From Trueperaceae bacterium (GTDB lineage: Bacteria > Deinococcota > Deinococci > Deinococcales > Trueperaceae), in NCBI GenBank assembly GCA_036381035.1, contig DASVDQ010000009.1, positions 1 to 32,036 on the forward strand: a DNA stretch of 32,036 nt. The letters run 5' to 3'. Every line of letters starts with the position of its first letter. Positions within the stretch are counted from its first letter, which is position 1. Under the pieces are notes generated by a model, which saw nothing but the letters and a program-made list of their open reading frames with translations, ran no database searches and was not told the origin of the DNA. Below are positions 1 through 32,036 of this stretch, piece by piece. Position numbers and translations under genes: made by a program.

Positions 1-141
1 ACAAGGCCGGGCGGGTGCTGGCTGAGGTGATCATGCGCGGCGGGGCGCTGACGGTCGACGTGGAGACCACCGGCTACCCGGTGGGCCACGCGCACCATCG
101 GCTGCGCACGGTGCAGCTGGGTGACGAACACGCCGCGGTGG
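1..141. repeat. Terminal direct repeat (contig closure), left copy
   Basis: These 141 bases are identical to the last 141 bases of the window (31896-32036). The reading frame of the polymerase gene passes through both copies in the same phase, so the sequence closes as a circle of 31,895 bp. A 141-base overlap matches a common largest k-mer of short-read metagenome assemblers, so it is more likely an assembly overlap of a circular or circularly permuted molecule than a biological terminal repeat. Confidence 0.93.
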
Positions 142-1757
142 TGCTCGACGCCACCGATCCCGAGCAGGCCGAGGTGGCCCGGGTGGCGCTGGCGGCCGCG
201 CCCCGGCTGCACGCGCACAGCGCCACCGCCGACCTGGTGCCGCTGGCGGCCGCCGGGCTGGTCGATGTGGACGCCTGGGAGCGGATGCACGACACCGTGC
301 TGCCGGCCAAGCTGGCCGACCCGGCGAGCACCGGCAGCGATCCGGGGTTGAAGCAACTGGCCGCGTCCGTGCTCGGCGACCAGGCGGTGACGCCGGCGGC
401 CGACGCCGCTCGTGCGGCGCTGTTCAAGGCCGGGCGGTGGTTGACCGACACCGAGGCGACCACGCCGCCCGAGCGCAGCGGCTGGGCGCAGGTGGACCCG
501 GTGTGCACCACGATGGTGCGCTACGCGGCCGCCGACGTGCTCGACACCGCGGCGCTGGCCGCCCGGCTGCCCCGCCCGCCCGCGGTGGTGCTTGAGCGCG
601 AGCGGGCGGTGCAGCGCATCACCGCCCGGGTGACGCACCGCGGGCTGCGCATCGATGGCGAGCAGGTGGCCGCGCTGATCGCCGAGCACACCGCCGCCCG
701 CGAGGCGGCCGCCGCTCGGGTGCGCGCGTTCGGCATCGACAACCCGGCCAGCGACCGGCAGGTGGCCGCCGCGCTGATCGCGCTCGGTGCCGAGCTGCCG
801 CGCACGAGGCCGAGCCAGAAACACCCCGACGGGCAGCCCAGCGTGGCCGCTGCGGCCCTGGAACGGCTGAGGGGCACCCCGGGCAAGGGTGGCGAGCTTT
901 CGGCCGCCGTGCTCGACTACAGGCGGCACGAAACGGTGCTCTCGGTGTTCCTGGAGCCTTACCGCCAGCTCGTGCGCTCCGGCGACGGGCGCGCCCGCCC
1001 GACCGTCTACACGCTGGGCACCGATACCGGGCGCATGTCCTGCGTGCGGCCCAACCTGCAGCAGCTGCCCCGCGAGGGCGGCGTGCGTGCGTGCATCGCC
1101 GCCGATCCGGGATACGTGCTGATCTCGGCCGACTTCTCCGGTGTGGAGCTGCGCGTGGCCGCGGCGCTGTCCGGTGACCCCAACCTTCGCCGGATGATCG
1201 TGGAGGGTGTGGACCTGCACTGGGAGATCGCCCGCCAGGTCTGGGGACCCGAGGCGACCAAGGCCGACCGCTACGCGGCCAAGCGGATCGTGTTCGGCCG
1301 CCTGTACGGCGGCGGGGTGCCCACTTTGGCCGCGCAGGCCGGTGTCAGTGAGTCGGTGGCCGCCAGCGCTGTCGACGTGCTCGACGCGATGACGCCCGGT
1401 CTGGCCGCCTGGTCACGGATGATCCGCGAGTCAATCAAGCATGGGCGCACGCAGTTTCCGAGCTACGCCGGGCGCGTCATCCACTTCCCGCCCGACTACC
1501 CCCACAAGGGACCGAACTACGCGATCCAGGGGACCGCGCGCGAACTCCTGGTGGACGCGCTGCTGCGCTGGGACGCGACGCGCTGGGGTGGCGGCGTGGT
1601 GCTGCCGGTGCATGACGAGATCGTGGCGATGGTGCCCGAGGCCGACGCCGAGCAGGCGACAGCCGCGCTCGTGCAGTGCATGACCACCGAGCTGTTTGGG
1701 GTGCCTATCGTGGCCGAGGCCAGTGCGCCCGCGCGCGCCTGGCAGGACTCTGTGTGA
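1..1757 (+). CDS. Family A DNA polymerase with 3'-5' exonuclease: C-terminal part of the junction-spanning PrimPol-helicase-polymerase gene
   Basis: This is the replicative polymerase part of a gene that starts at 29117 and crosses the contig junction; the first complete codon here is at 3. Exonuclease motif I (DVETTG, metal-binding D and E) is encoded at 57-74. The polymerase palm follows: the GRMSCVRPNLQQLP stretch, motif A (ADFSGVELR, Asp at 1131), motif B (KRIVFGRLYGG, near 1280) and motif C (HDE at 1611-1619). Both exonuclease and polymerase catalytic residues are present, so an active proofreading enzyme is expected. There is no 5'-nuclease domain, as usual for phage PolA. In the fused numbering motif A Asp is about residue 1304 and HDE about 1464-1466. 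No ATG/GTG with a good ribosome-binding site precedes the exonuclease domain, which favours translation as part of the fusion. It ends 4 bp before the stop of a convergent gene. Confidence 0.93.
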   Translation, partial: KAGRVLAEVIMRGGALTVDVETTGYPVGHAHHRLRTVQLGDEHAAVVLDATDPEQAEVARVALAAAPRLHAHSATADLVPLAAAGLVDVDAWERMHDTVLPAKLADPASTGSDPGLKQLAASVLGDQAVTPAADAARAALFKAGRWLTDTEATTPPERSGWAQVDPVCTTMVRYAAADVLDTAALAARLPRPPAVVLERERAVQRITARVTHRGLRIDGEQVAALIAEHTAAREAAAARVRAFGIDNPASDRQVAAALIALGAELPRTRPSQKHPDGQPSVAAAALERLRGTPGKGGELSAAVLDYRRHETVLSVFLEPYRQLVRSGDGRARPTVYTLGTDTGRMSCVRPNLQQLPREGGVRACIAADPGYVLISADFSGVELRVAAALSGDPNLRRMIVEGVDLHWEIARQVWGPEATKADRYAAKRIVFGRLYGGGVPTLAAQAGVSESVAASAVDVLDAMTPGLAAWSRMIRESIKHGRTQFPSYAGRVIHFPPDYPHKGPNYAIQGTARELLVDALLRWDATRWGGGVVLPVHDEIVAMVPEADAEQATAALVQCMTTELFGVPIVAEASAPARAWQDSV

Positions 1758-4561: not shown

Positions 4562-4596
4562 TCGACCGTAAATCCTCCTGCTAACCTGGGCTCGTG
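4562..4596 (+). promoter_or_regulatory. Candidate late promoter giving a leaderless portal mRNA
   Basis: TAACCT at 4582-4587 is a good actinobacterial -10 element, and the portal GTG begins 7 bases after it, where transcription should start. No Shine-Dalgarno precedes this GTG. Together these suggest a leaderless transcript. No convincing -35 is seen (TCGACC at 4562-4567 is too close), so an activator or phage factor may be needed. The minus-strand terS start lies 70 bp away. Confidence 0.45.
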
Positions 4597-7500
4597 CCCC
4601 CCGTTTGGCGCAAGATCTTTCGCCGTACGCCGCGGCCGAGCACGACAGGCCGCCGGCCGGTCACGTTCGCGTTGGAGGCGCCGCCGGAGATCACCGGGCT
4701 GCCGGAGCTGACGGGGATCGCGCCGCGGATCTCCCGCCGGGAAGCTCTGCAGGTGCCGGCGGTGATGCGCGCCCGCAACCTGATCTGCGGCTCGCTGGCG
4801 ACCCTGCCGATCCGGGTGCACGGTCCCGACCGGCGCGTGGTCGATAACGTCACGTACCTGGTGCCGCAGCCCGACCCGGACATCCCGGCGTCGGTGATGA
4901 TCGCGCAGACCGTCGAGGATCTGCTGTTCGAGAGCGTGGCGTGGTGGAGGGTCACGCAGTTCGGCTGGCACGGCTACCCGGTAGCGGCCCGGCACGTGCC
5001 GGTCACGTCGGTGTACATCGCCGGTAGCCCGGCGCTGCCGTCCGACAAGCTGATCAGCGCCGATCAGCCGTTCCCCGTCGACGGGCAGGTGTTCATCGAC
5101 GGTGTGCCGGTTGACGACAGGGAGATCATCCGGTTCGACTCCCCCAACCCGCCGCTGCTCGTGCACGCCGCCCGGGCCATCCGTACCTGTCTGCTGCTCG
5201 ACCGCGCCGCCGCGCTGTACGCCAAAGACCCGCTGCCGTTGGCGTATTTCGAGCCAAGGGAGGGCGCCGATCCCGCGACCGATGAGGAGATTCAGCAGGT
5301 CCTGGACGACTGGGAGAAGGCACGCCAGCAGCGCGCCACCGGTTTCGTCAACGCCGCCCTGCGGCTCAACACGGTCGGGTGGACGCCCGAGCAGCTTCAG
5401 CTGGCCGACGCCCGCCAGCACGCCGTGCTGGAGATCGCCCGGGCCGCCGGCGTCGACCCCGAAGACCTGGGCGTGAGCACCACGTCCCGCACGTACCAGA
5501 ACAGCGAGCAGCGCCGCCAAGACCTCATTGACTTCACCCTCGGCCCGTACGTGTCCGCGATTCAGGACCGACTGTCCATGCGCGACGTGCTCCCGCGTAA
5601 CTACGTGGCCCGCATCGACTTCGGCGGGTTCCTGCGCGGCGACACGAAGACCCGCATGGAGACCTACAAGATCGGCAAGGAGGTCGGCGCGTACACCGAG
5701 GACGAGATCCGCGAGCTGGAGAACCGGCCATCACTGACGCCGGCGCAGCGCCGCGCCATCGAACCCGCCACCGCCCCTGCGCAGCCGCCGCGGCCGCCGC
5801 AGCCGTCGGCACGCGACACCACCGAGGAGCCCGTCATGAGCCGCGGCATCATGTACCAGTTCAGCGAAGACAACGCCCCGATCCGGCTGTCGTTCGCTGA
5901 CGCACAGACTGTCAACTTCCGCGTGGACCCGGAGAAGCGCACCGTCAGCGGGTTGGCGGTGCCGTGGCGAAAGGTCGCCCGTAACGGGTTCGCCAAGTGG
6001 AAGTTTGATGAGGGTTCCCTGCGCTGGTCCGATCCGGCGCGGGTGAAATTGAATCTCGATCACGACCGGTCCCAGACGCTCGGACGTGCAGTCCGTCTCC
6101 AGGAGACCTCGGCAGGTCTGGACGTTACGTTCAAGATCGCCCGAGGAGCCGAGGGCGACCGAGCCCTTGCCCTTGCCGAGGATGGCGTCTACGACGGGTT
6201 CTCCATCGAGATCGATTTCGAGTCCGAGGGCGACGACTGGCAGCCCGACCCGTCTGACGAGTCGGTGCGGCTGGTGCGCCGGGCCACGCTGCGGGCTGTC
6301 GCCTTGACGCCCATGCCCGCATTCGATGACGCGCGAGTCACGCGCGTCGCTGCATCCAGGACAGGAGAAACGACAGTGCCCCAGACGACCGCCGCGTCGG
6401 CCGCCCCGGCGGCCGGAGACGGCACCACCCAGACCCAGACCCAGACCCAGACGCCCGCGGCGGTGGCGCTCAGCGCCGAGCAGCTGGAGACCCTCGCCAC
6501 CCGGCAGGGCGAGGCATTCGAGCGCGCGGTGACGCAGATCTTCGAGCGGATGGCGACGCCGCAGGCCGGCTCGTCCCCGGTTCCGGCGGCCCGGGCGTAC
6601 ATCACCCGCGAGGAGCCCGTCTACACCTTCTCGGGCGGTGGCGGCCCCTCGCTCGTGCGCGACGCCTGGCACGCCCGCATCGAGGGCAACCAGGAGGCGC
6701 GCGAGCGGCTGGCGAAGTTCGGCCGCCAGCAGGAGGAGATGGTGCAGCTGGCCCGGCGGCACCCGGAGATCGCCCAGCAGTTCGCCACCGTCTCCACCTC
6801 GACCGCCTCGGCGGTCATCCCGCCCGGCTACCGGCCCGACCTGTACGTCACCCAGCTGCTGCAGGGCCGCCCGCTGGTCGACGCCGTGTCGCGGGGCACG
6901 CTCACCGACGCGACCCCGTTCGTCATCCCGAAGTTCGTTTCGGCGACGGGTGCGGCCGGCGACCACACCGAGGGCACCAACCCGTCCGACGGCACGTTGG
7001 ACCTCAACACGGTGACGGTCACCCCGGGCGGTGTGAGCGGGAAGTTCATCCTGACCCGGGAGATCATCGACAGCTCGAACCCGGCCATCGACCAGATCGC
7101 GTTCACCGCGATGCGTGAGGCGTACGCCCAGAACACCGAAGCCAAGCTCTACGCCGAGCTGAACGGCGCCAATGGGCAGGGCGGCACCATCACGGGCGGG
7201 TTCGTGCCGTCGGGTGCGCAGGCGTACGCCGTCACGGCCACCGACGGCGCCGCCCTGGTCGCCGCCGCGCGAGAGGCCCTTGCGGCGTACCCGTTCCGCC
7301 GGTTCGGCGCCCCCAACCGGATGCACCTGTCCGCGTCGGCCACTTCGCTGTTCGCCAGCGCCGTCGGCTCCGACGGCCGCCCGCTGCTGCCGTCCATCGG
7401 GGCGACCAACACGGCCGGCGTCGGCAACGCCGTCCAGCAGGGCTGGTTCGTGGACGGGCTCGCCGCGGTGCCCACCTGGTCGATGACCGGCAACGCCGCC

Positions 7501-7683
7501 GGCGACGCGGACATCTTCATCTACAACAGCCTGGATGTGTGGGCGTGGGAAAGCCCGCTCCTCACGTTCAGGTTCGAGGAGAAGAGCGGCCCGGCGAACA
7601 TCGAGCTGGCGCTGTTCGGCTACTTCGCGTGCCGGCTCCTGCGCCCGGTCGGGCTCGTGGGTATCCGGCACAACACCGCGTGA
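4594..7683 (+). CDS. Portal - HK97-type prohead protease - major capsid protein in one open reading frame
   Basis: 1,029 residues without a stop, containing three proteins normally encoded separately. Residues 1 to about 414 are a portal (RREALQVPAVMRARNLICGSLATLP near the N-terminus, TSRTYQNSEQRRQDL near 285). Residues 415 to about 594 are an S78 prohead protease, with candidate catalytic His490 in LNLDHD and Ser537 in YDGFSIEI. Residues from about 595 are an HK97-fold capsid protein: a Gln-Thr repeat and helical delta-like scaffold segment, then the capsid core. Each part has the usual length for its family. The Met at 415 (ATG 5836) and Val at 595 (GTG 6376) fall exactly at the boundaries, and each has a Shine-Dalgarno, so the capsid and protease are probably also made from internal starts. 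This would allow far more capsid than portal copies. Fusion with later self-cleavage by the protease is the alternative. Confidence 0.92.
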   Translation: MPPVWRKIFRRTPRPSTTGRRPVTFALEAPPEITGLPELTGIAPRISRREALQVPAVMRARNLICGSLATLPIRVHGPDRRVVDNVTYLVPQPDPDIPASVMIAQTVEDLLFESVAWWRVTQFGWHGYPVAARHVPVTSVYIAGSPALPSDKLISADQPFPVDGQVFIDGVPVDDREIIRFDSPNPPLLVHAARAIRTCLLLDRAAALYAKDPLPLAYFEPREGADPATDEEIQQVLDDWEKARQQRATGFVNAALRLNTVGWTPEQLQLADARQHAVLEIARAAGVDPEDLGVSTTSRTYQNSEQRRQDLIDFTLGPYVSAIQDRLSMRDVLPRNYVARIDFGGFLRGDTKTRMETYKIGKEVGAYTEDEIRELENRPSLTPAQRRAIEPATAPAQPPRPPQPSARDTTEEPVMSRGIMYQFSEDNAPIRLSFADAQTVNFRVDPEKRTVSGLAVPWRKVARNGFAKWKFDEGSLRWSDPARVKLNLDHDRSQTLGRAVRLQETSAGLDVTFKIARGAEGDRALALAEDGVYDGFSIEIDFESEGDDWQPDPSDESVRLVRRATLRAVALTPMPAFDDARVTRVAASRTGETTVPQTTAASAAPAAGDGTTQTQTQTQTPAAVALSAEQLETLATRQGEAFERAVTQIFERMATPQAGSSPVPAARAYITREEPVYTFSGGGGPSLVRDAWHARIEGNQEARERLAKFGRQQEEMVQLARRHPEIAQQFATVSTSTASAVIPPGYRPDLYVTQLLQGRPLVDAVSRGTLTDATPFVIPKFVSATGAAGDHTEGTNPSDGTLDLNTVTVTPGGVSGKFILTREIIDSSNPAIDQIAFTAMREAYAQNTEAKLYAELNGANGQGGTITGGFVPSGAQAYAVTATDGAALVAAAREALAAYPFRRFGAPNRMHLSASATSLFASAVGSDGRPLLPSIGATNTAGVGNAVQQGWFVDGLAAVPTWSMTGNAAGDADIFIYNSLDVWAWESPLLTFRFEEKSGPANIELALFGYFACRLLRPVGLVGIRHNTA
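5824..5838 (+). promoter_or_regulatory. Internal ribosome-binding site and ATG for the protease
   Basis: GAGGAG at 5824-5829 sits six bases before ATG 5836, in frame with the portal-protease-capsid reading frame. Starting here gives a protease that begins MSRGIMYQFS, directly after the Pro/Gln-rich tail of the portal. Position, spacing and protein boundary all agree, so internal initiation is likely, though the portal reading frame has no stop before it. Confidence 0.6.
6363..6378 (+). promoter_or_regulatory. Internal ribosome-binding site and GTG for the major capsid protein
   Basis: AGGAG at 6363-6367 sits eight bases before GTG 6376, in frame. Starting here gives a 435-residue capsid protein beginning MPQTTAASAA. 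The boundary lies just after the protease domain ends (PAFDDARVTRVAASR), as expected for a separate capsid gene whose upstream stop codon is absent. Confidence 0.6.
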
Positions 7684-7691
7684 GGCTAGCG

Positions 7692-7868
7692 GTGGCTACG
7701 AAGAAGCGCACAACCAGGCGGCCGGCGTCCACACAGGACGCCGGCCAGCCGGCCGCCGTGCAGGAGCCGCCGGCCGTCGAGACCGTCGAGCAGGAGCAGA
7801 CCACCGACTACACGCGGTGCGGCGGTCACATCCTGACCGAGTACGGCTGGGTGCCGGAGAGGCGGTGA
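7692..7868 (+). CDS. Small conserved-type head protein, unknown function
   Basis: 58 residues starting at GTG 7692, eight bases after the capsid stop, with TGAGG upstream. The N-terminus is basic and Thr/Pro/Gln-rich (ATKKRTTRRPASTQ) and disordered-looking. The C-terminus is a short ordered motif (TRCGGHILTEYGWVPE). Small proteins of this shape often lie between capsid and head-tail connector genes in actinophages; some may be decoration or connector-assembly factors. I do not recognise a specific function. Confidence 0.65.
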   Translation: MATKKRTTRRPASTQDAGQPAAVQEPPAVETVEQEQTTDYTRCGGHILTEYGWVPERR

Positions 7869-11716: not shown

Positions 11717-14179
11717 ATGGCGCCCCCGTACAGCAGTTTCGAGGACCTGGCCGCCGAGCAGGTCGAGGGCGTGGACTACACCCGCACGGCGGTGGTTCCC
11801 GCCGGCGCGTTCCTGTCCGCCATCGCCATCCACGGCGGCGGTATCGAGCCAGGCACCGGAGAGCTCGCCCGGCACGTCGCCGGCGACCGGATGGCGTTCT
11901 ACGAGTTCGCCGGCATCAAGGCGTCGGGGAACTCGGACCTGCACATCACGTCGACCCTGTTTGATGAGCCGCTGTGCCTGGACCTGCAGGCCAAGGTGTA
12001 CCGCACCATCTCGTTTCACGGATACACCGGCACCACCGGGCTCGCGGAAACCCAGATCGGCGGGCTCGACGGGCGGCTGCGCGAGTTGATCCGCACAGCG
12101 TTGACCAACGCCGGGTTCACTGTGGTCGATGCTGTCTCGGAGGTCGCCGGCGCCGATCCCGACAACATCGCCAACCGGAACCGCTCGGGTGCCGGCGTGC
12201 AGCTGGAGCTTTCCCGCGCGCTGCGTGAGTCGTTCTTCCCGGGCGGGGACCTGTCGGCGGCCAACCGGGCGAGCGGGGTGCGCACCCAGGCGTTCTACGA
12301 CTACGCCAACGCCGTGCTCAGCGCCGTGTCGGTGGCGCTGGCGTACGACGGCACCCTGTCGCGGGTTCAGCTGAACACCGTGGCGCCAGGGCTGTTCGAT
12401 GACTTCGCGCGGGACAACTACACGGCGCCGCAGAACCTGAACACCAGTTTCGAGGTCAACACCGCGGGCTGGTTCGCCACGGGCGGGACCTTGACCCGCT
12501 CCACCGCCCAGGCTCACGACGGGGTGGCGTCCGCCCTGCTGACGCCGGACGGGGCATCCGTCGAGGCGAAGGCGTTCAACGGGCTGATCACGGTGACCGC
12601 CTCGCGGACCTTCCGGGCGAGCGCGTGGGTGCGCTGCGCGGTGTCTCGGAACGTCGTTATCGGCATCGACTGGCACCAGCCCGAGTCCGGCGGTAGTGCG
12701 TACATCTCGTCTTCGCTGCAGTCGGTGGCGGTGACCGCGAACACGTGGACGCGCATTGAAGTGGTCGGCACCGCCCCGGCCAACGCCGGGCGGGCACGGA
12801 TAACCGTGTCGATGACCGGCAGCCCGCCAGCCTCGCACCTGCTGCACATCGATGAGGCCGAGCTACGTCAGCTAATCCCCGGCTGGGGCACGTCGACCAG
12901 CGGCCACGCGTACCTGCACGTCGGCGGGACGGACACCGATTACCAGGTCATCGGCGGGGTGGGGCAACACATCCTGCCCGCCATCAACGTGTCCCGGTGG
13001 TCGCTGGCCGCCGTGAGCGCGCTCGATTGCGACGTGACCGCCGTTGTCTCCACCGGCGCGCTGGCGGTCGGGGGGTCACAGTTTCTGGCGGTCGGCGGCC
13101 GGCTGTCGGACGACGCCACGACCGGCTACCTCGCCCGCCTGGACTTCAACACCTCGCAGGAAGTGGTGCTGACCCTGCGTAAGCGGGTGTCGGGCACCGA
13201 AACGTTCCTCGTGCAGGACATCACCGAGCTGACGCACCAGGCCGGGCAGCAGTACGCGGTGCGGCTGCAGGTGGTCGGCCAGACCCTGCGCGGCAAGTGC
13301 TGGCTGGCATCCGGGCCGGAGCCGCCCGACTGGAACCTGCAGACCACCGATCCCGACATCGACCAGCCCGGCCGGATCGGGTGCCGCTCCATCCTGTCGG
13401 TCAACAACGCCAACACGCTGCCGTTCACGACGACGTGGCACGAGATCATCACCCGGGGGGTGGCCCTGGTCGAGCGGTCGGCCAACGGGGTTACCTGGAC
13501 GACGGTGCGCGGCGGGGCGGACCTCGACGGGGCGGCCGGGGCGAGCATCGAGCTGGACGACTACGAATTCACCGACTCGGTGGCCAACCACTACCGGGTG
13601 CGGGTGGTCGAGGCGGACAGCGGGGCGACGTTGTTTGTCGACGGCGACCAGATCACGCCGCAGCTGGACACCGTATGGCTCAAGAGCTTGGCCAGGCCGT
13701 TCTTGAACCGCCCGGTGACGGTCACCGACTGGTCGGACGTGACCCGCTCCAGCCGCTCGGGCGTGTTCCCCATCGTCGGGCGCAGCCGCCCGGTCGTGGT
13801 CACCGATCTGCACGGTCCCCGGCAGTGGACCCTCGACGTGGTGGCGCACACCGAGGCCGACGCCGAGAACCTGGACTTCCTGATCTCCACCGGTGAAGTC
13901 CAGTTCATCCACGTGCCCGCGGGCTCGCGCATCCCCGGCGGTTACGTGGCGCTCGGCGACACAGCCGAACGCCGGCCGCAGCCGCGCAGCCAGCGGCGCA
14001 TCTTCTCCCTGGCGCTGACCGAGTGCGCCCCGCCCGGGCCCGACGTGGTGCCGGCCGTGGGCACGTGGACGACGGTCATGAACACGTTCGAGACCTGGGC
14101 CGATGTCTTGGCCGCGTTCGAGACCTGGGGCGACCTGATGCAGCTGGTCGGCTCGCCCGAGGATGTGATCGTGCCATGA
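11717..14179 (+). CDS. Minor tail protein with N-terminal poly-gamma-glutamate hydrolase-like domain
   Basis: 820 residues. Residues about 20-175 match the phage PghP/YjqB zinc hydrolase family, which cuts poly-gamma-glutamate: AIAIHGGGIEPGTGELA (zinc ligands probably H39 and E44), ISFHGYTG (H101), NIANRNRSGAGVQLELSR (substrate Arg/Asn and a candidate general base E164). Residues about 230-390 look like a carbohydrate-binding jelly-roll domain (NTSFEVNTAGW, RTFRASAWVRC, HIDEAELRQ). About 400-580 resembles a laminin-G-like sandwich, and a C-terminal part of about 220 residues looks like an actinophage tail-tip domain. It follows the tape measure by one base and precedes a DUF5047-type protein, the position of a distal tail or baseplate protein. 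It may depolymerise a gamma-glutamyl capsule or peptide on the host surface; the true substrate is not shown by sequence. Confidence 0.82.
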   Translation: MAPPYSSFEDLAAEQVEGVDYTRTAVVPAGAFLSAIAIHGGGIEPGTGELARHVAGDRMAFYEFAGIKASGNSDLHITSTLFDEPLCLDLQAKVYRTISFHGYTGTTGLAETQIGGLDGRLRELIRTALTNAGFTVVDAVSEVAGADPDNIANRNRSGAGVQLELSRALRESFFPGGDLSAANRASGVRTQAFYDYANAVLSAVSVALAYDGTLSRVQLNTVAPGLFDDFARDNYTAPQNLNTSFEVNTAGWFATGGTLTRSTAQAHDGVASALLTPDGASVEAKAFNGLITVTASRTFRASAWVRCAVSRNVVIGIDWHQPESGGSAYISSSLQSVAVTANTWTRIEVVGTAPANAGRARITVSMTGSPPASHLLHIDEAELRQLIPGWGTSTSGHAYLHVGGTDTDYQVIGGVGQHILPAINVSRWSLAAVSALDCDVTAVVSTGALAVGGSQFLAVGGRLSDDATTGYLARLDFNTSQEVVLTLRKRVSGTETFLVQDITELTHQAGQQYAVRLQVVGQTLRGKCWLASGPEPPDWNLQTTDPDIDQPGRIGCRSILSVNNANTLPFTTTWHEIITRGVALVERSANGVTWTTVRGGADLDGAAGASIELDDYEFTDSVANHYRVRVVEADSGATLFVDGDQITPQLDTVWLKSLARPFLNRPVTVTDWSDVTRSSRSGVFPIVGRSRPVVVTDLHGPRQWTLDVVAHTEADAENLDFLISTGEVQFIHVPAGSRIPGGYVALGDTAERRPQPRSQRRIFSLALTECAPPGPDVVPAVGTWTTVMNTFETWADVLAAFETWGDLMQLVGSPEDVIVP

Positions 14180-20862: not shown

Positions 20863-22386
20863 ATGTCCCCCGCTACGCCAGAGAACGCGCTACGCGCCGG
20901 TATCTATTCACGCCAGTCACGAGATAAAACGAAGAGCATCGAGGACCAGTCACACGAGAACCGCGCCGCCGTCGAGGCGCAGGGCTGGCAGCTCGTGGCC
21001 GAGTACGCCGACGGCACCAGCGCGTCGAGGTTCGCCCGCAAGGCCCGCGACGACTGGCAGCGAGTGCTGGCCGACATCGACGCCGGCAAGCTCGACGTGC
21101 TCGTGCTCTGGGAACCCAGCCGCGGTGACCGCACCCCCGAGACCTGGTTGGCCCTGCTGTCGCTGTGCCGCGACCGAGGCGTGGGCATCCACGTCACCAC
21201 GCACCACCGCACCTACGACATGACCAACCCGCGCGACTGGCGCACCCTGGCCGAAGACGGCATAGACAGCGCGTACGAGTCGGAGAAGATCCGCCAGCGG
21301 GTTACCCGCGGGCAGGCGTCGGCGGCGCGCGCCGGGCGCCCGAGCCAGGGCCGGTGTCCGTACGGGTACCGGCGCGTATACGACCCCGCTACGGGTGCAC
21401 TAGTCGGTCAGGAACCAGATCCGAACACAGCCGGGGTGGTCCGCGAGATCATCGAGCGGGTGGCCCGAGGTGTCCCGATCTCGACCATTGTGGCCGATCT
21501 GAACGCCCGCGACGTACCCCGGCCCGGCGGCGCGCGCCGCTGGTACCGCGTGCGGGTGCGCGACCTGGCGATGAACCCCGCGTACATCGGCCAGCGCGTC
21601 TACCGCGGGCAGACGTTCCCCGGCACCTGGGAGCCGCTGGTGGATGAGGCTACCTTCTGGGCCGCGCAGCGGGTGCTGGCCGATCCGGGCCGGACCAAGA
21701 CCAGGCCGGGCCGCGTGCGCCACCTGCTGTCCTACCTGGGCATCTGCGCGGTGTGCGAGCCGGACCGCAGGGCCGCCGGCGATGATCCGTCGCCGCTGAC
21801 GGCCGTGCAGGGCCGCTACCGGTGTCTGCACAACTCGTGCGTGACCATCGCCCAGGAGGCGTCCGACGAGTTCGTCACCATGCTGGTCCTGGCCCGGCTG
21901 CGCGAGCCCGACATCTACGCCCAGCTGCACCAGGTCGGCGAAGACTCCGACCGCATCGTCATGGCGGCACGCGCCGAGGCGGCCCGGCTGCGCGACCAGC
22001 TCGACCGCTGGCGGCTGTCCGCGGCCCGGGGCGAGACCACGCCGGAGTCCCTGGCCGTCATCGAGGCCGAGCTAACGGCCAACATCGAGGCGGCCGAGCA
22101 GCGCGCCCAGCGGGCGATCATCCCGCCGGCGCTGCGCCAGGTGCTCGAACCCGGCGCCGACATCGAGACCCGTTGGGCAGCCATGCCGCTACCGGCACGC
22201 CGCGCAGTGGTGCGCACACTGGCGGTCATCAAAGTGTCGCAATCCAGCCGGCCGGGGAGCCGCCGGTTCGAGCCGGGCAGGTTTGGACAGTCCTACTGGA
22301 TCGGGGACACCCGAACGTGGGACGAGATCTGGACGACACGCCCACGCCCTGATGTGGCGTTACTCACAGTGTCACGCCGGACGTGA
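20863..22386 (+). CDS. int: Large serine integrase
   Basis: 507 residues. The N-terminal catalytic domain has YSRQS (nucleophile Ser19, after Arg17) and SIEDQ, then LVLWEPSRGDRTPETW with the catalytic arginines. The recombinase domain follows (CPYGYRRVYDP, MNPAYIGQRVYRGQTF), then a zinc-ribbon C295/C298/C321/C326 and a coiled-coil motif at about 360-405. All large-serine-recombinase parts are present, so it is probably active in attP x attB integration, marking the phage as temperate. The start ATG at 20863 has a -10 seven bases upstream and no Shine-Dalgarno. Confidence 0.95.
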   Translation: MSPATPENALRAGIYSRQSRDKTKSIEDQSHENRAAVEAQGWQLVAEYADGTSASRFARKARDDWQRVLADIDAGKLDVLVLWEPSRGDRTPETWLALLSLCRDRGVGIHVTTHHRTYDMTNPRDWRTLAEDGIDSAYESEKIRQRVTRGQASAARAGRPSQGRCPYGYRRVYDPATGALVGQEPDPNTAGVVREIIERVARGVPISTIVADLNARDVPRPGGARRWYRVRVRDLAMNPAYIGQRVYRGQTFPGTWEPLVDEATFWAAQRVLADPGRTKTRPGRVRHLLSYLGICAVCEPDRRAAGDDPSPLTAVQGRYRCLHNSCVTIAQEASDEFVTMLVLARLREPDIYAQLHQVGEDSDRIVMAARAEAARLRDQLDRWRLSAARGETTPESLAVIEAELTANIEAAEQRAQRAIIPPALRQVLEPGADIETRWAAMPLPARRAVVRTLAVIKVSQSSRPGSRRFEPGRFGQSYWIGDTRTWDEIWTTRPRPDVALLTVSRRT

Positions 22387-26677: not shown

Positions 26678-26782
26678 ATGTCTGTCTACAAGCCACCCCG
26701 CGACCGTTGGCCCGGGACCGTCGCCTACATCGCCACGCTGGCGTTCGTCGCGTTCCTGCTCTGGCTGACGGTGGCGTACTGA
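26678..26782 (+). CDS. Small membrane protein
   Basis: 34 residues starting ATG 26678, with GGAGG seven bases upstream. After a charged start (MSVYKPPRDRWPG) almost the whole remainder is one hydrophobic segment (TVAYIATLAFVAFLLWLTVAY). Its TGA overlaps the ATG of the SNF2 helicase. Too short for a family assignment, but the Shine-Dalgarno and the exact overlap support it as a real gene. Confidence 0.65.
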   Translation: MSVYKPPRDRWPGTVAYIATLAFVAFLLWLTVAY

Positions 26783-28578
26783 TGGTCTCGGTGCACCAGT
26801 TCCGCACCACCGCCGACGACGCCTCGTTGGTCGGGGAACTGAGCGCCGACGGACAGACCATCGTCCTGATCGCCACCGGGCCGGATTACGTCATGGCGCG
26901 CATGGCCAACTGGCTGCGCACGCTCACCCCGGCGTTCAAGACCAGCGACCCGCCCGGCGCGCTCGTGGTGCCGGCGACCTGGCCGGCGGTGGTGCAGCTG
27001 GCGCACACGTTCGCGGACTACTGGCGCCCCGGGCCGCGGCTGACCGCGTGGATCGGCGAGCAGCTGGTGCGCCGCACGCAGATCCCCGCCGAGCTGACCG
27101 TGACCCTGCCCGCCGGCCGCGTGCCCCGCCCGTACCAGGTCGAGGGCGCGCGGATGATCGCCGCGACCGGCCGGGCGCTGCTCACCGACGAACAGGGCAC
27201 CGGCAAGACCGTCACCACCGTGCTCGGGCTGCTCGAACGTGCCCGCGTCGGCCAGGTCCTGCCCGTGGTGTGCGTGGTGCCGGGCTCGGTGGTCGACGCC
27301 TGGGTGCAGACCTGGCACGACTGGGCGCCGAGCTGGCGCGCCGTCGCCTGGCGCGGCACCCCGGCCAAACGCCGCAAGCTGGCCGGCACGGCCGACGTGT
27401 ACGTCACGAGCTTCGACACCGCGCGTATGGACGCCGCCGGCCCGGGTGATCCGCTGCTGGCGCTGCGCCCGGCCGCGCTCGTGGTCGATGAGGTGCACCT
27501 GATCAAGTCGCCGCACGCGGCCCGGTCGCTGGCCGTGCGGCGACTGGCCAAACAGGCCGATGTCGTGGTCGGGCTGTCCGGCACGCCGATCACGCACCAC
27601 CCCGGGGACCTGTGGCCGACGCTGGAGGCGCTGGAGCCCGCGGCGTACCCGAGCCGCACCCGCTGGGTGGACCGCTACTGCCTGAAGATCCCCGGCGACT
27701 ACGGCGAGCAGGTGGTGGGGCTGCGCCGCTCGCACGAGCCCGAGCTGCGCGCCTGCCTGCTCGGGCAGCTGCGCCGGGTGGCCAAGGCCGACGTGCTCGA
27801 CCAGCTGCCGCCCAAGGTCTACAGCACGCGCACCGTCGAGCTGCCGCCGGCGTACCGCAAGGCGTACGACCAGATGGAGTCACAGATGCTGGCCGAGCTG
27901 CCCGACGGTGGGCAGCTGTCGGCCATGAGCGTGCTGGCCCAGCTGACCCGGCTCGCCCAGCTGGCCGCGGCCGCCGCCGACGTGACGGTGACCGTCGAGG
28001 AGGGCGACGACGGGCTGCCGCGCCAGCACGTGCACGTGCGGCTCAAGGCGCCCAGCTGGAAGGTCGACGCGCTGCTTGAGGTGCTGGCCGAGCGGCCCGG
28101 GCAGCCGGTGGTGGCGTTCGCGCCCAGCCGCCAGCTGATGATGCTCGCCGGCAAAGCGGCCGAGGCGGCCGGGCACCAGGTCGGCTACATCATCGGCGGG
28201 CAGACGGTGCCCGAGCGCAGCGAGACCGTGGCGGCGTTCCAGGCCGGCAAGCTCGACCTGCTGTGCGTGACCACGCAGGCCGGCGGCGTGGGGCTCACGC
28301 TGACCGCCGCGGGCACCGTGGTGTTCCTGCAGCGGCCCTGGTCGATTGTGGAAGCCATCCAGGCCGAGGACCGCTGCCACCGCATCGGCTCGGAGATCCA
28401 CGACTGCATCGAGGTCATCGACATCGTGGCGGCCGACACCATCGACGCCCGCGTGCGCTCGGTGCTGCACGACAAAGCCGGGCAGCTGGCCGACCTGCTG
28501 CAGGACCCCCGCATCGTGCGCGAGCTGCTGGGCGGCTCGGCGCGCAAGGCCCAACGGAAGAAAGGCGGCAAGCCGTGA
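26782..28578 (+). CDS. SNF2/superfamily 2 DNA helicase
   Basis: 598 residues, ATG 26782 (TGATG overlap). An N-terminal domain of about 110 residues is followed by PYQVEGARMIAATGRALLTDE and Walker A QGTGKT (about 138-143), DEVH box (236-239), and LSGTPITHHPGDLW (motif III). The C-terminal helicase lobe has VVAFAPSRQL, VTTQAGGVGLTLTAA (motif V) and QAEDRCHRIG (motif VI, 527-536). It probably remodels or unwinds DNA during replication. It ends KKGGKP, a basic tail, and its stop overlaps the resolvase GTG. Confidence 0.92.
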   Translation: MVSVHQFRTTADDASLVGELSADGQTIVLIATGPDYVMARMANWLRTLTPAFKTSDPPGALVVPATWPAVVQLAHTFADYWRPGPRLTAWIGEQLVRRTQIPAELTVTLPAGRVPRPYQVEGARMIAATGRALLTDEQGTGKTVTTVLGLLERARVGQVLPVVCVVPGSVVDAWVQTWHDWAPSWRAVAWRGTPAKRRKLAGTADVYVTSFDTARMDAAGPGDPLLALRPAALVVDEVHLIKSPHAARSLAVRRLAKQADVVVGLSGTPITHHPGDLWPTLEALEPAAYPSRTRWVDRYCLKIPGDYGEQVVGLRRSHEPELRACLLGQLRRVAKADVLDQLPPKVYSTRTVELPPAYRKAYDQMESQMLAELPDGGQLSAMSVLAQLTRLAQLAAAAADVTVTVEEGDDGLPRQHVHVRLKAPSWKVDALLEVLAERPGQPVVAFAPSRQLMMLAGKAAEAAGHQVGYIIGGQTVPERSETVAAFQAGKLDLLCVTTQAGGVGLTLTAAGTVVFLQRPWSIVEAIQAEDRCHRIGSEIHDCIEVIDIVAADTIDARVRSVLHDKAGQLADLLQDPRIVRELLGGSARKAQRKKGGKP

Positions 28579-29120
28579 CGTACGTGCTCGGCGTCGACCC
28601 CGGCCCGGTGGTCGGGCTCGTGGGTCTGCACATCACGCCGGACCTCGACATCAGCCCGCGCCCGGACATCATCCAGTGCTCGGCGGACACCCTCAACGCG
28701 GTGCTGGGCGGGCTGATCCTCGACGTGGGGGTGCGTGGGCTCAACTCGCCCGAGCTGCTGGTGGCGGTCGAGCGGTTCGTGATCGGGCCGCGCACGGGGC
28801 GCCTGAACGCCGGCGGCGCGTCACGGACCGCCGTGCACATCGTGGGCATGCTGGCCGACCGCTCCCGAGCGGGGCGCGCGTACCGCTACGTGGCGCGCAG
28901 CGCGGCCGAGGTCAAGCCCTGGGCCACCGATGCCCGCCTCGGCGCGGTGGGGCTGCTGGAGCCCACGAAAGGCATGCGCCACGCCCGCGACGCCGCCCGC
29001 CACGCGCTGTTCGCCGCGGTGCGCGACTGCGGGGTGCCCGATCCGCTCGCCCGCACGCACCAGCTCGTGCGCGGGGTGGCGGCCCTGTACAACGCCGCCC
29101 GCCGGGGGGTGACCGGGTGA
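28575..29120 (+). CDS. RuvC-like Holliday-junction resolvase
   Basis: 181 residues from GTG 28575. RNase H-fold nuclease signature: VLGVDPGPVVGLV (Asp8), LLVAVERFVIGP (Glu66) and MRHARDAARHALFA (Asp139 and His in the last helix). This places it with the phage and actinobacterial RuvC-like family that cuts branched DNA before packaging. It overlaps the SNF2 stop and its own TGA overlaps the GTG of the replication fusion gene, so the three are translationally coupled. Confidence 0.86.
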   Translation: MTYVLGVDPGPVVGLVGLHITPDLDISPRPDIIQCSADTLNAVLGGLILDVGVRGLNSPELLVAVERFVIGPRTGRLNAGGASRTAVHIVGMLADRSRAGRAYRYVARSAAEVKPWATDARLGAVGLLEPTKGMRHARDAARHALFAAVRDCGVPDPLARTHQLVRGVAALYNAARRGVTG

Positions 29121-32036
29121 CGCCCGAGCAGTCGGCCGCGCTCGATGTCGCCCGAGCCCTGGCCGCCGCAGGCATCCCGGTGTTCATCGCGCGGCCCGAT
29201 CCCGAGGAGCCGATCGGGTTCAAGCTGCCCCGCGGCTGGCAGCACGCGCGTCCCGACCCGCGAGTGGTCGACGCCTGGCGGCCGGGCATGGCGCTGGCGA
29301 TGGTGTGCGGGCACGGGCTCGACCTGCTCGACATCGACCCGCGCGCCGGCGGCGACCCGGCGGCCGCGCTGCGCGAGGCGCTGGGCGGCGCGGTGCCGGT
29401 CGCGTACGCAACCGCGGTCACGCCGTCGGGCGGGGTGCACACGTTCATCCGCTCGCTGGGCGTGCGTTCGCGCGACGGCGTGGTGCCCGGCGTCGACGTC
29501 AAGGCCGGCGACGCCGAAGGCAACGGCCGCGGGTTCGCGTTCATCGCGCCGACCGTGCGCCGGTCCAAGGTGACCGGCGAGCCCGCAGCGTACCGCTGGG
29601 TCAGCCCGCCCGACCTGGCGCGGCTGGCGGCCGCCGGCGACGACACCAGCGGCGCGGCGCTGGCCGAGCTGATCCGCGCCGCCCGCGCCGGCGGCGACGC
29701 GCAGACCGCCGAGGACTTCATGCGCACGGGCCCGTGGGCCGAGCTCGCTGCCGGCACGGTGTTTCGCAACGGGCGCAACAACGGCGTGGCCCGGCTCGCC
29801 CAGGCGCTGCGCGGGCGCGGCGGCTGGCGCCTGGAAGACGCGATCGAGTACATGCGCGCGACGGTCTGGCCGCACATCGACCAGGGGCAGGGCGGCCACC
29901 CGTTCACCATCGAGGAGTTCGAGGCGACCATCACGGCGCAGTGGCGCCAGTACCCCGACGGCGCCGAGCAGCGCGCCACCCCGCCGGCACCCGGCGGCCC
30001 CGCACCCAACCCCGCGCGCTACTTCGCCAAAGAGGGCGGGCTGCTGGCCGCCACGCTGGCCAACGACGTGCTGGCGCTCGGGCCGCTGGCGCAGGGGATC
30101 GACCACATCACCTGGCGGTACGTCGAGGGGGTCTGGCGCCCCGCCCGCAACGCGGTCCGCGACCGGGTGGCGTACCTGATGGGTGAGCGCTACCGGCAGC
30201 ACATGGCGCGCACGGTGCAGGACATCGTGGCGGCCCGGGTGCCCACGATCACCTGTGAGCCGGTCGAGCAGTACATCAACTTCCGTAACGGGCTGCTGGA
30301 GTGGCGCACCGGCCAGCTGCACCCCCACTCCCCCGACGTGCCGAGCACCGTGCAGCTGCCGGTCGACTACGAGCCCGAGGCGCAGTGCCCGGCGTTCGAG
30401 AAGTTCGTGGCCGAGGTGGTGCCCGCCGACATGGTGGACACGATCTGGGAGCTGATCGGCTACCTGATGTACTCGGGCAACCCGCTGCACAAGGCGGTGA
30501 TGCTGACCGGCACCGGCCGCAACGGCAAGGGGACGCTGCTGCGGGTGGTCACGGCGCTGCTCGGGCGCCACAACATCACCTCGGTCAGCCTGCACGATCT
30601 GGTCAACACCCGGTTCAGCACCGCCTCGCTGTTCGGCAAGCTGGCCAACATCGCCGGCGACATCGACGCCGGCTACCTGGAGCACACCGCCACGTTCAAG
30701 GCCATCACCGGCGGCGACCAGATCTCGGCCGAGCACAAGGGCCGCGACCGGTTCGACTTCGTGCCGTGGGCGGTGCCGGTGTTCAGCGCCAACAAGATCC
30801 CGCCGAGCGCGGACACCACGGTCGGCTACCTGTCCCGCTGGCTCGTGGTGCCGTTCCCGCACTCGTTCGCCGGGCGCGAGGATCGCACCCTCGACCGGCG
30901 GCTGACCGCCCCGGCCGAGCTGGCCGGCATCGCCGCCCGGGCGGTGCGAGCACTGCCGGCGCTGCTGGAGCGTGGCGACTTCGCGGTGACCGACAGCGCC
31001 CAGGCGGCCCGCGAGGAGTTCGTGCGCCGCGTCGACCAGGTGCGCACCTGGCTGGCCGACTGCACCGTGCCCGACCCGGACGCCTGGACCGCGCGCACCG
31101 AGCTGTACGACGCGTACCGGCGGTGGGCCGACCGCGACGGGTACCGGGCGGTCCGGGCCGGCGAGTTCTACGACCGGTTGGAGGCGGCCGGGCTCGTGGC
31201 CACCACGATCCGCGGGGTGCGGGGGTTCCGCGGCGTGCGGATCACCGATCCGGGGTTCACCCGCCTGCCGAGCGCCCCGACGCCGCCCGCACCCGCCGGG
31301 CCCGAGCAGTTGATCAAGGGTGCAGGAGATCAACAACAGAAGTTGATCAAGGGTGCAGAGGGTGCAGGAAATTCCAACTCCGTGCAAACGGCCGTGACCA
31401 GCGAAAACGCCCCTACAGACGTGATCAAGGGTGCAGGGGGTGCACAAATTTCTGACTCCGTGCAAACGGGGGGTGCAGAGGGTGCAGGAATTTCCGACTC
31501 GATGCAAAGGGGGTGCCCAGAAGTTGATCAAGGGTGCAGGAAAACGCCCCCGGAACCTGCACCCTTGATCAACAAGGCCGGAAACGCCGCCGAGGGTGCA
31601 GAATCTGCACCCCCACCTGCACCCTTGATCAAATCGCCTTCTACCAGCGGAAACGCTGCAGAAAAGATGATCAAGGGTGCAGGGGGTGCAGGATTTCCCC
31701 ATCCCCCCCCGCGCGTACGCGCGCGCGCGATAGCGGGGTGGGAAATTGCTGCACCACCTGCACCCTTGATCAACAACGGCCGGGCGGCTGGGACCACAGC
31801 CAAGCGGGCGCAGGCGATCTTGGAGGCCGCCGGCGACCGGGTGAGCCTGCCCGCGCTCGTGGACCGTTCGGGCGAGATCACACCGCTGCCGCCCGACAAG
31901 GCCGGGCGGGTGCTGGCTGAGGTGATCATGCGCGGCGGGGCGCTGACGGTCGACGTGGAGACCACCGGCTACCCGGTGGGCCACGCGCACCATCGGCTGC
32001 GCACGGTGCAGCTGGGTGACGAACACGCCGCGGTGG
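29117..32036 (+). CDS. PrimPol primase - D5-type SF3 helicase - repeat linker - PolA fusion (5' part; continues across the circle junction to 1757)
   Basis: The frame is open from GTG 29117 to the window end and, because the ends overlap, on to the TGA at 1755-1757: 1,511 residues. Residues about 1-190: archaeo-eukaryotic primase/polymerase with DLLDIDP (Asp72, Asp74), TPSGGVHTF (His108) and VDVKAG (Asp127). About 195-440: PriCT-like and D5_N segments. About 440-640: SF3 helicase with Walker A GTGRNGKGT (Lys471) and FSANKIPP (Asn559). About 640-715: helical/winged-helix-like domain. Then a low-complexity linker (about 732-886, repeated LIKGAGG) whose DNA carries the 17-bp elements at 31310-31773. 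The polymerase follows from about residue 895. No stop or strong internal start separates the parts. The linker may be an origin region, as in lambda O. Translated whole, it would place primer synthesis, unwinding and extension in one molecule. Confidence 0.9.
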   Translation, partial: MTPEQSAALDVARALAAAGIPVFIARPDPEEPIGFKLPRGWQHARPDPRVVDAWRPGMALAMVCGHGLDLLDIDPRAGGDPAAALREALGGAVPVAYATAVTPSGGVHTFIRSLGVRSRDGVVPGVDVKAGDAEGNGRGFAFIAPTVRRSKVTGEPAAYRWVSPPDLARLAAAGDDTSGAALAELIRAARAGGDAQTAEDFMRTGPWAELAAGTVFRNGRNNGVARLAQALRGRGGWRLEDAIEYMRATVWPHIDQGQGGHPFTIEEFEATITAQWRQYPDGAEQRATPPAPGGPAPNPARYFAKEGGLLAATLANDVLALGPLAQGIDHITWRYVEGVWRPARNAVRDRVAYLMGERYRQHMARTVQDIVAARVPTITCEPVEQYINFRNGLLEWRTGQLHPHSPDVPSTVQLPVDYEPEAQCPAFEKFVAEVVPADMVDTIWELIGYLMYSGNPLHKAVMLTGTGRNGKGTLLRVVTALLGRHNITSVSLHDLVNTRFSTASLFGKLANIAGDIDAGYLEHTATFKAITGGDQISAEHKGRDRFDFVPWAVPVFSANKIPPSADTTVGYLSRWLVVPFPHSFAGREDRTLDRRLTAPAELAGIAARAVRALPALLERGDFAVTDSAQAAREEFVRRVDQVRTWLADCTVPDPDAWTARTELYDAYRRWADRDGYRAVRAGEFYDRLEAAGLVATTIRGVRGFRGVRITDPGFTRLPSAPTPPAPAGPEQLIKGAGDQQQKLIKGAEGAGNSNSVQTAVTSENAPTDVIKGAGGAQISDSVQTGGAEGAGISDSMQRGCPEVDQGCRKTPPEPAPLINKAGNAAEGAESAPPPAPLIKSPSTSGNAAEKMIKGAGGAGFPHPPPRVRARAIAGWEIAAPPAPLINNGRAAGTTAKRAQAILEAAGDRVSLPALVDRSGEITPLPPDKAGRVLAEVIMRGGALTVDVETTGYPVGHAHHRLRTVQLGDEHAAV
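31523..31573. repeat. Perfect 18-bp inverted repeat built from two elements
   Basis: Copies 4 and 5 (31524-31540 and 31556-31572) with one flanking G/C pair form a perfect 18-bp stem with a 15-base spacer, both in the DNA and in the mRNA. Such a stem could form a cruciform, or impede ribosomes and polymerases between the helicase and polymerase parts. No U tract follows. Confidence 0.8.
31668..31772. repeat. 105-bp imperfect palindrome with alternating CG centre
   Basis: The left arm (TGATCAAGGGTGCAGG, then GGGTGCAGG and ATTTCCCC) matches the reverse complement of the right arm over about 40 bp with a few mismatches and single-base gaps. The centre is an alternating purine-pyrimidine tract (CGCGCGTACGCGCGCGCGCG, 31710-31729), prone to left-handed DNA, with the palindrome GCGCGTACGCGC in it. 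This is the largest secondary-structure element seen in the window and lies in the coding linker, just before the polymerase domain. Confidence 0.8.
31896..32036. repeat. Terminal direct repeat (contig closure), right copy
   Basis: Identical to bases 1-141; see the left copy. Position 31896 equals position 1, so the unique circle is 31,895 bp and the polymerase gene is continuous across it. Confidence 0.93.

Follow-up and report, generated by a model that had tools for sequence, protein, structure and literature searches.

A phage gene joining primase, helicase and proofreading polymerase, with a candidate replication origin in its own linker

One open frame for primase, helicase and polymerase

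The window analyzed here, 32,036 nucleotides in length, is the entire contig DASVDQ010000009.1 (G000:C9) of the Trueperaceae bacterium assembly GCA_036381035.1. It carries a phage gene whose predicted product joins, in this order, an archaeo-eukaryotic primase (AEP) fold, a D5/SaPI-type superfamily 3 (SF3) helicase, a winged helix, a linker, a 3'-5' exonuclease and a family-A DNA polymerase (PolA). The DNA encoding the linker contains inverted and direct repeats (iterons), an array that the original prediction had missed and that is probably a replication origin. The gene, its upstream neighbor and its parts are listed below, with residues counted from the GTG start.

28263..29120, + strand: upstream frame matching phrog_1981, overlapping the replicase start by GTGA (frame positions, phrog match)
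29117..32036, + strand: first part of the replicase gene, from the GTG start and on through the joined contig ends (open frame; the same unbroken frame in relatives)
1..1757, + strand: second part of the replicase gene, with the exonuclease and polymerase domains and the stop at 1755-1757 (open frame, Pfam)
29129..29692, + strand: AEP/PrimPol domain, residues 5-192, with DxD at residues 72/74 (AlphaFold2 model against 3m1m, conservation of D72/D74, Pfam Prim-Pol in relatives)
29999..31036, + strand: D5_N and SF3 helicase, residues 295-640, with the Walker A motif GTGRNGKGT at residue 465 (Pfam D5_N and DUF5906, fold match to 7om0)
31040..31246, + strand: winged helix, residues 642-710, the proposed iteron-binding domain (fold match to 1dp7, co-variation with the iterons between loci L119 and L121)
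31247..31891, + strand: low-complexity linker, residues 711-925 (about 215), its DNA being the proposed origin (repeat and frame analysis)
42..569, + strand: 3'-5' exonuclease domain, residues 941-1116, its start duplicated at 31937-32036 through the end repeat (Pfam PF01612)
729..1742, + strand: family-A DNA polymerase, residues 1170-1507, with motifs A, B and C intact (Pfam PF00476, E 2e-49)

The first 141 bases of the contig match the last 141 exactly (1-141 and 31896-32036), and this repeat is found at the two contig ends only. Exact end repeats of this size are typical of circularized short-read contigs, and a genuine terminal repeat within a polymerase gene would be odd. Joining the ends gives a circle of 31,895 bp, on which reading from GTG 29117 meets no stop for 1,511 codons, until the one ending at 1757; this confirms the open frame, end identity and continuation described in the original prediction. 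The predicted chain would have a mass of about 160 kDa. As the genome is 70% G+C, long open frames arise cheaply (an antisense frame of 1,049 amino acids is open as well). Openness alone therefore proves little, and the case for a real fusion rests on relatives.

Scans of IMG/VR and GTDB seeded with the polymerase part yielded about 50 loci with 49-78% polymerase identity. These relatives, picked by polymerase homology, have an unbroken frame across the stretch where the window contig is broken. All complete genes in the clade of at least 49% polymerase identity are single frames of 1,454-1,972 codons ending in PolA, with the exception of loci L042 and L025; the fusion is intact in about 50 relatives. 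Polymerases of about 30% identity are all encoded by stand-alone genes of about 600-740 codons. Scans seeded with the helicase part found PolA in the same frame at 28 of 32 loci, with many contigs shared between these and the polymerase-seeded loci; the other four comprise L123, where the polymerase continues in another frame, and three distant helicases. On this evidence the fusion is genuine and no artefact. In a quick tree, the window polymerase lies within a 50-row clade of fused polymerases (support 100). The unfused L042 and L025 polymerases are nested within this clade and hence look like later separations.

The L042 and L025 polymerases are 64% identical to that of the window, yet are separate genes, and L042 has a DnaG-type primase upstream in place of the fused front part. 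At L130 and L149, the same helicase type is joined to a distant PolA (26-27% identity), which suggests polymerase replacement or a second fusion.

The presence of a PrimPol primase, an SF3 helicase and a proofreading PolA in one chain, as originally predicted, is borne out by Pfam, by catalytic motifs and by fold matches: the three share one open frame with their catalytic motifs intact. An AlphaFold2 (AF2) model of residues 1-710 was built with 22 sequences. Its residues 5-192 align with the prim-pol domain of pRN1 ORF904 (3m1m; Z 10.6, root-mean-square deviation 3.4 Å, 162 residues aligned). A Pfam search of the window protein gave no primase domain match; Pfam Prim-Pol was matched in 14 of 36 aligned members, and D72 and D74 are nearly invariant among relatives. 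The assignment of residues 5-192 as PrimPol is thus supported, by the model in particular. Residues 295-710 match the SaPI5 primase-helicase (7om0; Z 16.2), and residues 642-710 the DNA-binding domain of RFX1 (1dp7; Z 9.2, deviation 2.3, 69 residues). In 15 relatives, the exonuclease motif residues D15, E17, D73, Y170 and D174 and the polymerase residues D373, R419, K423, Y431 and H533-D534-E535 are invariant.

The start site is backed by aligned N-termini (VTPEQSAALDVARAL in the window, MTPDQIEALNVARAL in both L024 and L008), and the GTGA overlap with the phrog_1981 frame suggests coupled translation. The window linker has no stop in frame 0, compared with 10 and 2 in the other two forward frames. 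Frame 0 is stop-free in all 41 distinct linkers, the other two forward frames having 2-13 stops each.

Named hosts of the relatives are Micromonospora, Haloactinopolyspora, Labedaea, Jatrophihabitans and one Pseudonocardiales metagenome-assembled genome, L022 and L023 being from Micromonospora. The front modules are mosaic: the window helicase type is common only to L024 and L155 among fused relatives, and L010 has a DUF3854 domain in the PrimPol position. Because primase-helicase modules vary, a search of viral contigs seeded with the front part of the chain gave no match. A search of 60 genomes of related hosts gave no match either. Among cultured phage records, none reaches 80% coverage of the window fused protein, and the same holds for phage and plasmid records and the L022 fused protein. 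At L062 (4980-10433), PolA is split by an insertion matching Hint, intein-splicing and HNH domains, an intein in the polymerase of a fused replicase; extra stretches also occur in L129, L122 and L140.

Repeats in the linker DNA and their association with the helicase

The sequence TTGATCAAGGGTGCAGG occurs in eight copies (small differences allowed) in the window linker DNA, split five to three between the strands. All lie in one 460-bp cluster, and the rest of the window has none (0.05 expected). The copies were located by repeat search.

31310..31326, + strand: iteron 1, TTGATCAAGGGTGCAGG
31343..31359, + strand: iteron 2
31421..31437, + strand: iteron 3
31524..31540, + strand: iteron 4, in a reading frame unlike that of the other + copies (also from frame analysis)
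31556..31572, - strand: iteron 5, inverted
31616..31632, - strand: iteron 6, inverted
31667..31683, + strand: iteron 7
31757..31773, - strand: iteron 8, inverted
31311..31410, no strand: stretch inside the array with 53% G+C against 70% for the genome, which places it in roughly the lowest 1% of 100-nt windows; its A+T content is moderately raised over that of the neighboring DNA but not high in absolute terms

Most relatives have an iteron motif of their own at the equivalent place in the linker, commonly ACCC[GT][TC]CA, and in 30 of the 41 distinct linkers the repeat array outdoes every other stretch of the locus. Since the copies occur on both strands and in several reading frames, the iterons are, judged by their sequence, DNA elements and not a peptide repeat. 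Many copies hold TGA on one strand, and none of 86 stop-bearing copies is in frame; for the first set of 41 such copies, the nominal probability of this is (2/3)^41 = 6e-8, the copies not being fully independent. Openness played no part in choosing the loci, for which polymerase homology was the criterion, yet there are no in-frame stops, indicating that the linker is translated. Its peptide sequence is poorly conserved.

The iteron motif follows the helicase. In Mantel tests over 33 proteins, motif similarity was correlated with similarity of the helicase (r 0.52, p 0.0005), less so with that of the primase (r 0.42), and not with that of the polymerase (r 0.05, p 0.29). When the window helicase type is left out, r is 0.31 for the C-terminal part of the helicase (p 0.001) and 0.09 for the polymerase (p 0.19).

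The same association is seen in pairs of relatives. L155 and L119 share 98.4% identity in the polymerase, but their helicases belong to different families (27%). The L155 iterons resemble the window's iteron type, as the L155 helicase resembles the window's helicase type, and DNA identity between the two loci sets in about 20 bases beyond the final iteron. This has the appearance of a natural module swap. Between L119 and L121, about 4 of 280 helicase core residues are different, whereas 8 of 22 winged-helix residues are (Fisher p 9e-8). Both have nine iterons at matching places. In the 8-base iteron core, every one of the nine copies is changed at positions 5 and 6 and unchanged at the remaining six; the linker DNA flanking the iterons is about 40% diverged in the same register. 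Such a pattern is what a changed recognition specificity should look like. We propose, from this co-variation, that the helicase may bind the iterons via its winged helix.

At L158 (about 7086-7846), an unfused gene for a distant helicase is directly followed by six copies of GGTAGATAA, two on one strand and four on the other, as expected of a downstream origin.

Genomic setting and related systems

The phage is assigned to actinobacterial hosts. A serine integrase (20863-22386, + strand, phrog_95) is encoded in the window and the phage is therefore probably temperate. A frame of 1,029 amino acids (4594-7683, + strand) may be a portal-protease-capsid fusion, with matches to a portal protein (residues 4-382), a head maturation protease (444-624) and a major head protein (439-1027). 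In the tail region, a protein (11717-14179, + strand) matches poly-gamma-glutamate hydrolase and a phosphodiesterase family. Upstream of the replicase lies a separate helicase (26707-28578, + strand) of the phrog_62 family, which we take to be SNF2-like. SNF2-like genes have been linked with strand-displacing phage PolA (PMC9069017).

The original prediction knew of no described case of these enzymes in one chain. This is wrong in kind, since single-chain replicases already include GP55 (AEP, SF3 and PolB), OS3173 Pol and PfPREX. GP55 of lactococcal phage 1706, a helicase-primase-polymerase-exonuclease chain, has had all its activities shown in vitro and has more than 1000 homologues (PMC12205980). 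Like the window protein, it unites SF3 helicase, AEP primase, 3'-5' exonuclease and polymerase; unlike it, it has a family B polymerase and the order helicase-AEP-PolB instead of AEP-helicase-exonuclease-PolA. ORF55 has no comparable two-strand repeat array. The PfPREX primase/helicase is of the Toprim/Twinkle kind, and we know of no origin embedded in its gene. PfPREX resembles the window gene in encoding primase, helicase, exonuclease and a PolA-type polymerase together and differs in being nuclear-encoded and cleaved: PMC7689252 describes it as an apicoplast replication polyprotein of Plasmodium that is proteolytically processed. The same source presents OS3173 Pol of Aquificae viruses as a 1,606-residue primase/helicase-PolA polyprotein. 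Together with the TOSV 'Pyrovirus' proteins, it shares with the window protein a viral chain of about 1,600 residues, an N-terminal primase/helicase and a C-terminal exonuclease and PolA, some relatives being unfused; it differs in its N-terminal DUF927/COG5519, the lack of a reported AEP and its Aquificae hosts, and the accessible part of that source describes no linker origin (PMC7689252). Pfam found no DUF927 in the window protein (D5_N and DUF5906 were matched instead) nor in the tally for the 36-member alignment.

In its modeled fold, residues 1-710 resemble the AEP-SF3-winged-helix initiators (pRN1 ORF904, NrS-1 PrimPol, SaPI Rep), having the AEP fold with DxD and a D5-type SF3 helicase followed by a winged helix. 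None of these initiators has a fused polymerase. The pRN1 protein has a putative origin immediately 3' of its own gene (PMC4234260), in the same relative place as the window iteron array, although the pRN1 origin is a non-coding stem-loop and the candidate described here an iteron array inside the frame. In cultured actinophages with modules of the phiC31 gp9a/gp11 type, an SF3 primase/helicase gene is likewise closely followed by a PolA gene, but as two genes and with a polymerase of about 30% identity. No repeat array is present between the primase/helicase and polymerase genes of phiC31, Soondubu, phiMiGM15, Samy, Honk and Shaeky. Absent from these six phages and from GP55, iterons were rejected as a general trait of unfused primase/polymerase modules.

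Lambda O is no helicase, primase or polymerase, and host enzymes are recruited. The lambda origin is located within gene O (PMC5043065) and, as is proposed for the window, initiator-recognized iterons lie inside the initiator's own coding sequence; lambda shows that a gene for an initiator can accommodate an origin. An AEP-SF3-PolA chain is not described in the available portion of a survey of AEP proteins (PMC5862659). In the open-licence literature, we found neither a conserved AEP-SF3-PolA clade nor an origin located in a linker of this type, which is weak evidence of absence. Single-chain replicases being already known, any novelty lies in the AEP-SF3-PolA combination, and the surprising part is the embedded, co-varying candidate origin.

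Proposed initiation at the linker and alternative explanations

We consider it likely that the gene encodes a single-chain phage replicase and also contains the origin on which this replicase acts, the linker iteron array probably being this origin. The array in the linker DNA would be bound by the winged helix that terminates the SF3 helicase, helicase subunits would then gather at the iterons and unwind the adjoining A+T-richer DNA, a primer would be made by the N-terminal AEP domain, and this primer would be extended by the C-terminal proofreading PolA, tethered through the flexible linker of some 200 residues. The linker would thus have a double role, as origin in its DNA and as a tolerant open spacer in its protein. 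The open chain, its motifs, the conserved fusion and the iteron-helicase association are read from sequence, and from there we infer an uncleaved chain, the iterons as origin and the order of events. By analogy with pRN1, the ancestor may have had its origin 3' of the gene, and an in-frame fusion of a downstream PolA would have trapped that origin in the linker.

With somewhat less assurance, we favor a broader view, in which a clade of temperate actinobacterial phages has a one-gene replicon: the frame would supply initiator, helicase, primase and proofreading polymerase along with the only origin, linker codons would be doubly selected, for spacer and for iterons, and modules would be swapped just downstream of the iterons.

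Several observations weigh against this interpretation. GC skew has no clear switch at the linker, and 11 of the 41 linkers (e.g. L010, L014, L048 and L061) lack an array standing above the rest of the locus. The AF2 model has a mean predicted local distance difference test score of just 67. L042 and L025 manage with an unfused polymerase, so the fusion is not indispensable. Finally, part of the iteron-helicase correlation could stem from linkage alone, because the array sits nearer to the helicase (starting a median of 40 nt past its end in the 33 proteins) than to the polymerase (229 nt).

Among the alternatives, the chain might be a polyprotein cut after synthesis, as PfPREX is (PMC7689252), or the polymerase might also be made from an internal start, with primase-helicase and polymerase acting separately. 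This we regard as unlikely. The poor conservation of the linker peptide would suit it, and the original statement that no good internal start is visible holds in part only, given that in-frame GTG, TTG and ATG codons are present 5-59 codons ahead of exonuclease motif I. In relatives, however, conserved protein sequence (e.g. KITKAAQKEAERAEARRAAAGE) lies upstream of these candidate codons, no start codon is kept at one place across all relatives, and all 41 linkers are open despite the stop-bearing repeats that fill many of them.

Still less probable, in our estimation, is that the repeats are repressor sites or an autoregulatory operator of the replicase instead of an origin. Arrays of inverted and direct sites within an early gene could control transcription, and the helicase winged helix could act in self-repression. 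The single 460-bp cluster is unlike dispersed operators or stoperators, though; that the sites follow the helicase module points to the helicase as binder, and their place 3' of the AEP-SF3-winged-helix coding part matches the pRN1 origin.

It is very improbable that the repeats simply reflect a repetitive linker peptide or mark a hot spot for recombination between helicase and polymerase modules, even though the linker is a recombination boundary, with the L155/L119 breakpoint right past the last iteron. Identical 8-9-mers are found in either orientation and in more than one frame, which no single peptide repeat can account for, and the peptide-repeat explanation was rejected; the concerted two-base change across nine copies, paralleled by change in the winged helix, argues for protein binding. 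An assembly or circularization artefact specific to this contig, where the gene straddles both ends and depends on the 141-bp overlap, has a negligible probability and is refuted in kind by the continuous gene in about 50 relatives, isolate genomes among them.

If a single-chain replicase does act at the linker iterons, a near-complete replisome and its start site would be reduced to one gene of about 4.5 kb, which could be moved to a plasmid for testing as a minimal replicon. The pairing of PolA with an AEP-SF3 initiator would be a second route to single-chain replicases, hitherto shown for PolB. The putative specificity switch between L119 and L121 and the apparent module swap between L155 and L119 would make initiator-origin recognition directly readable, and the linker would be a clear case of coding DNA that probably serves as an origin too.

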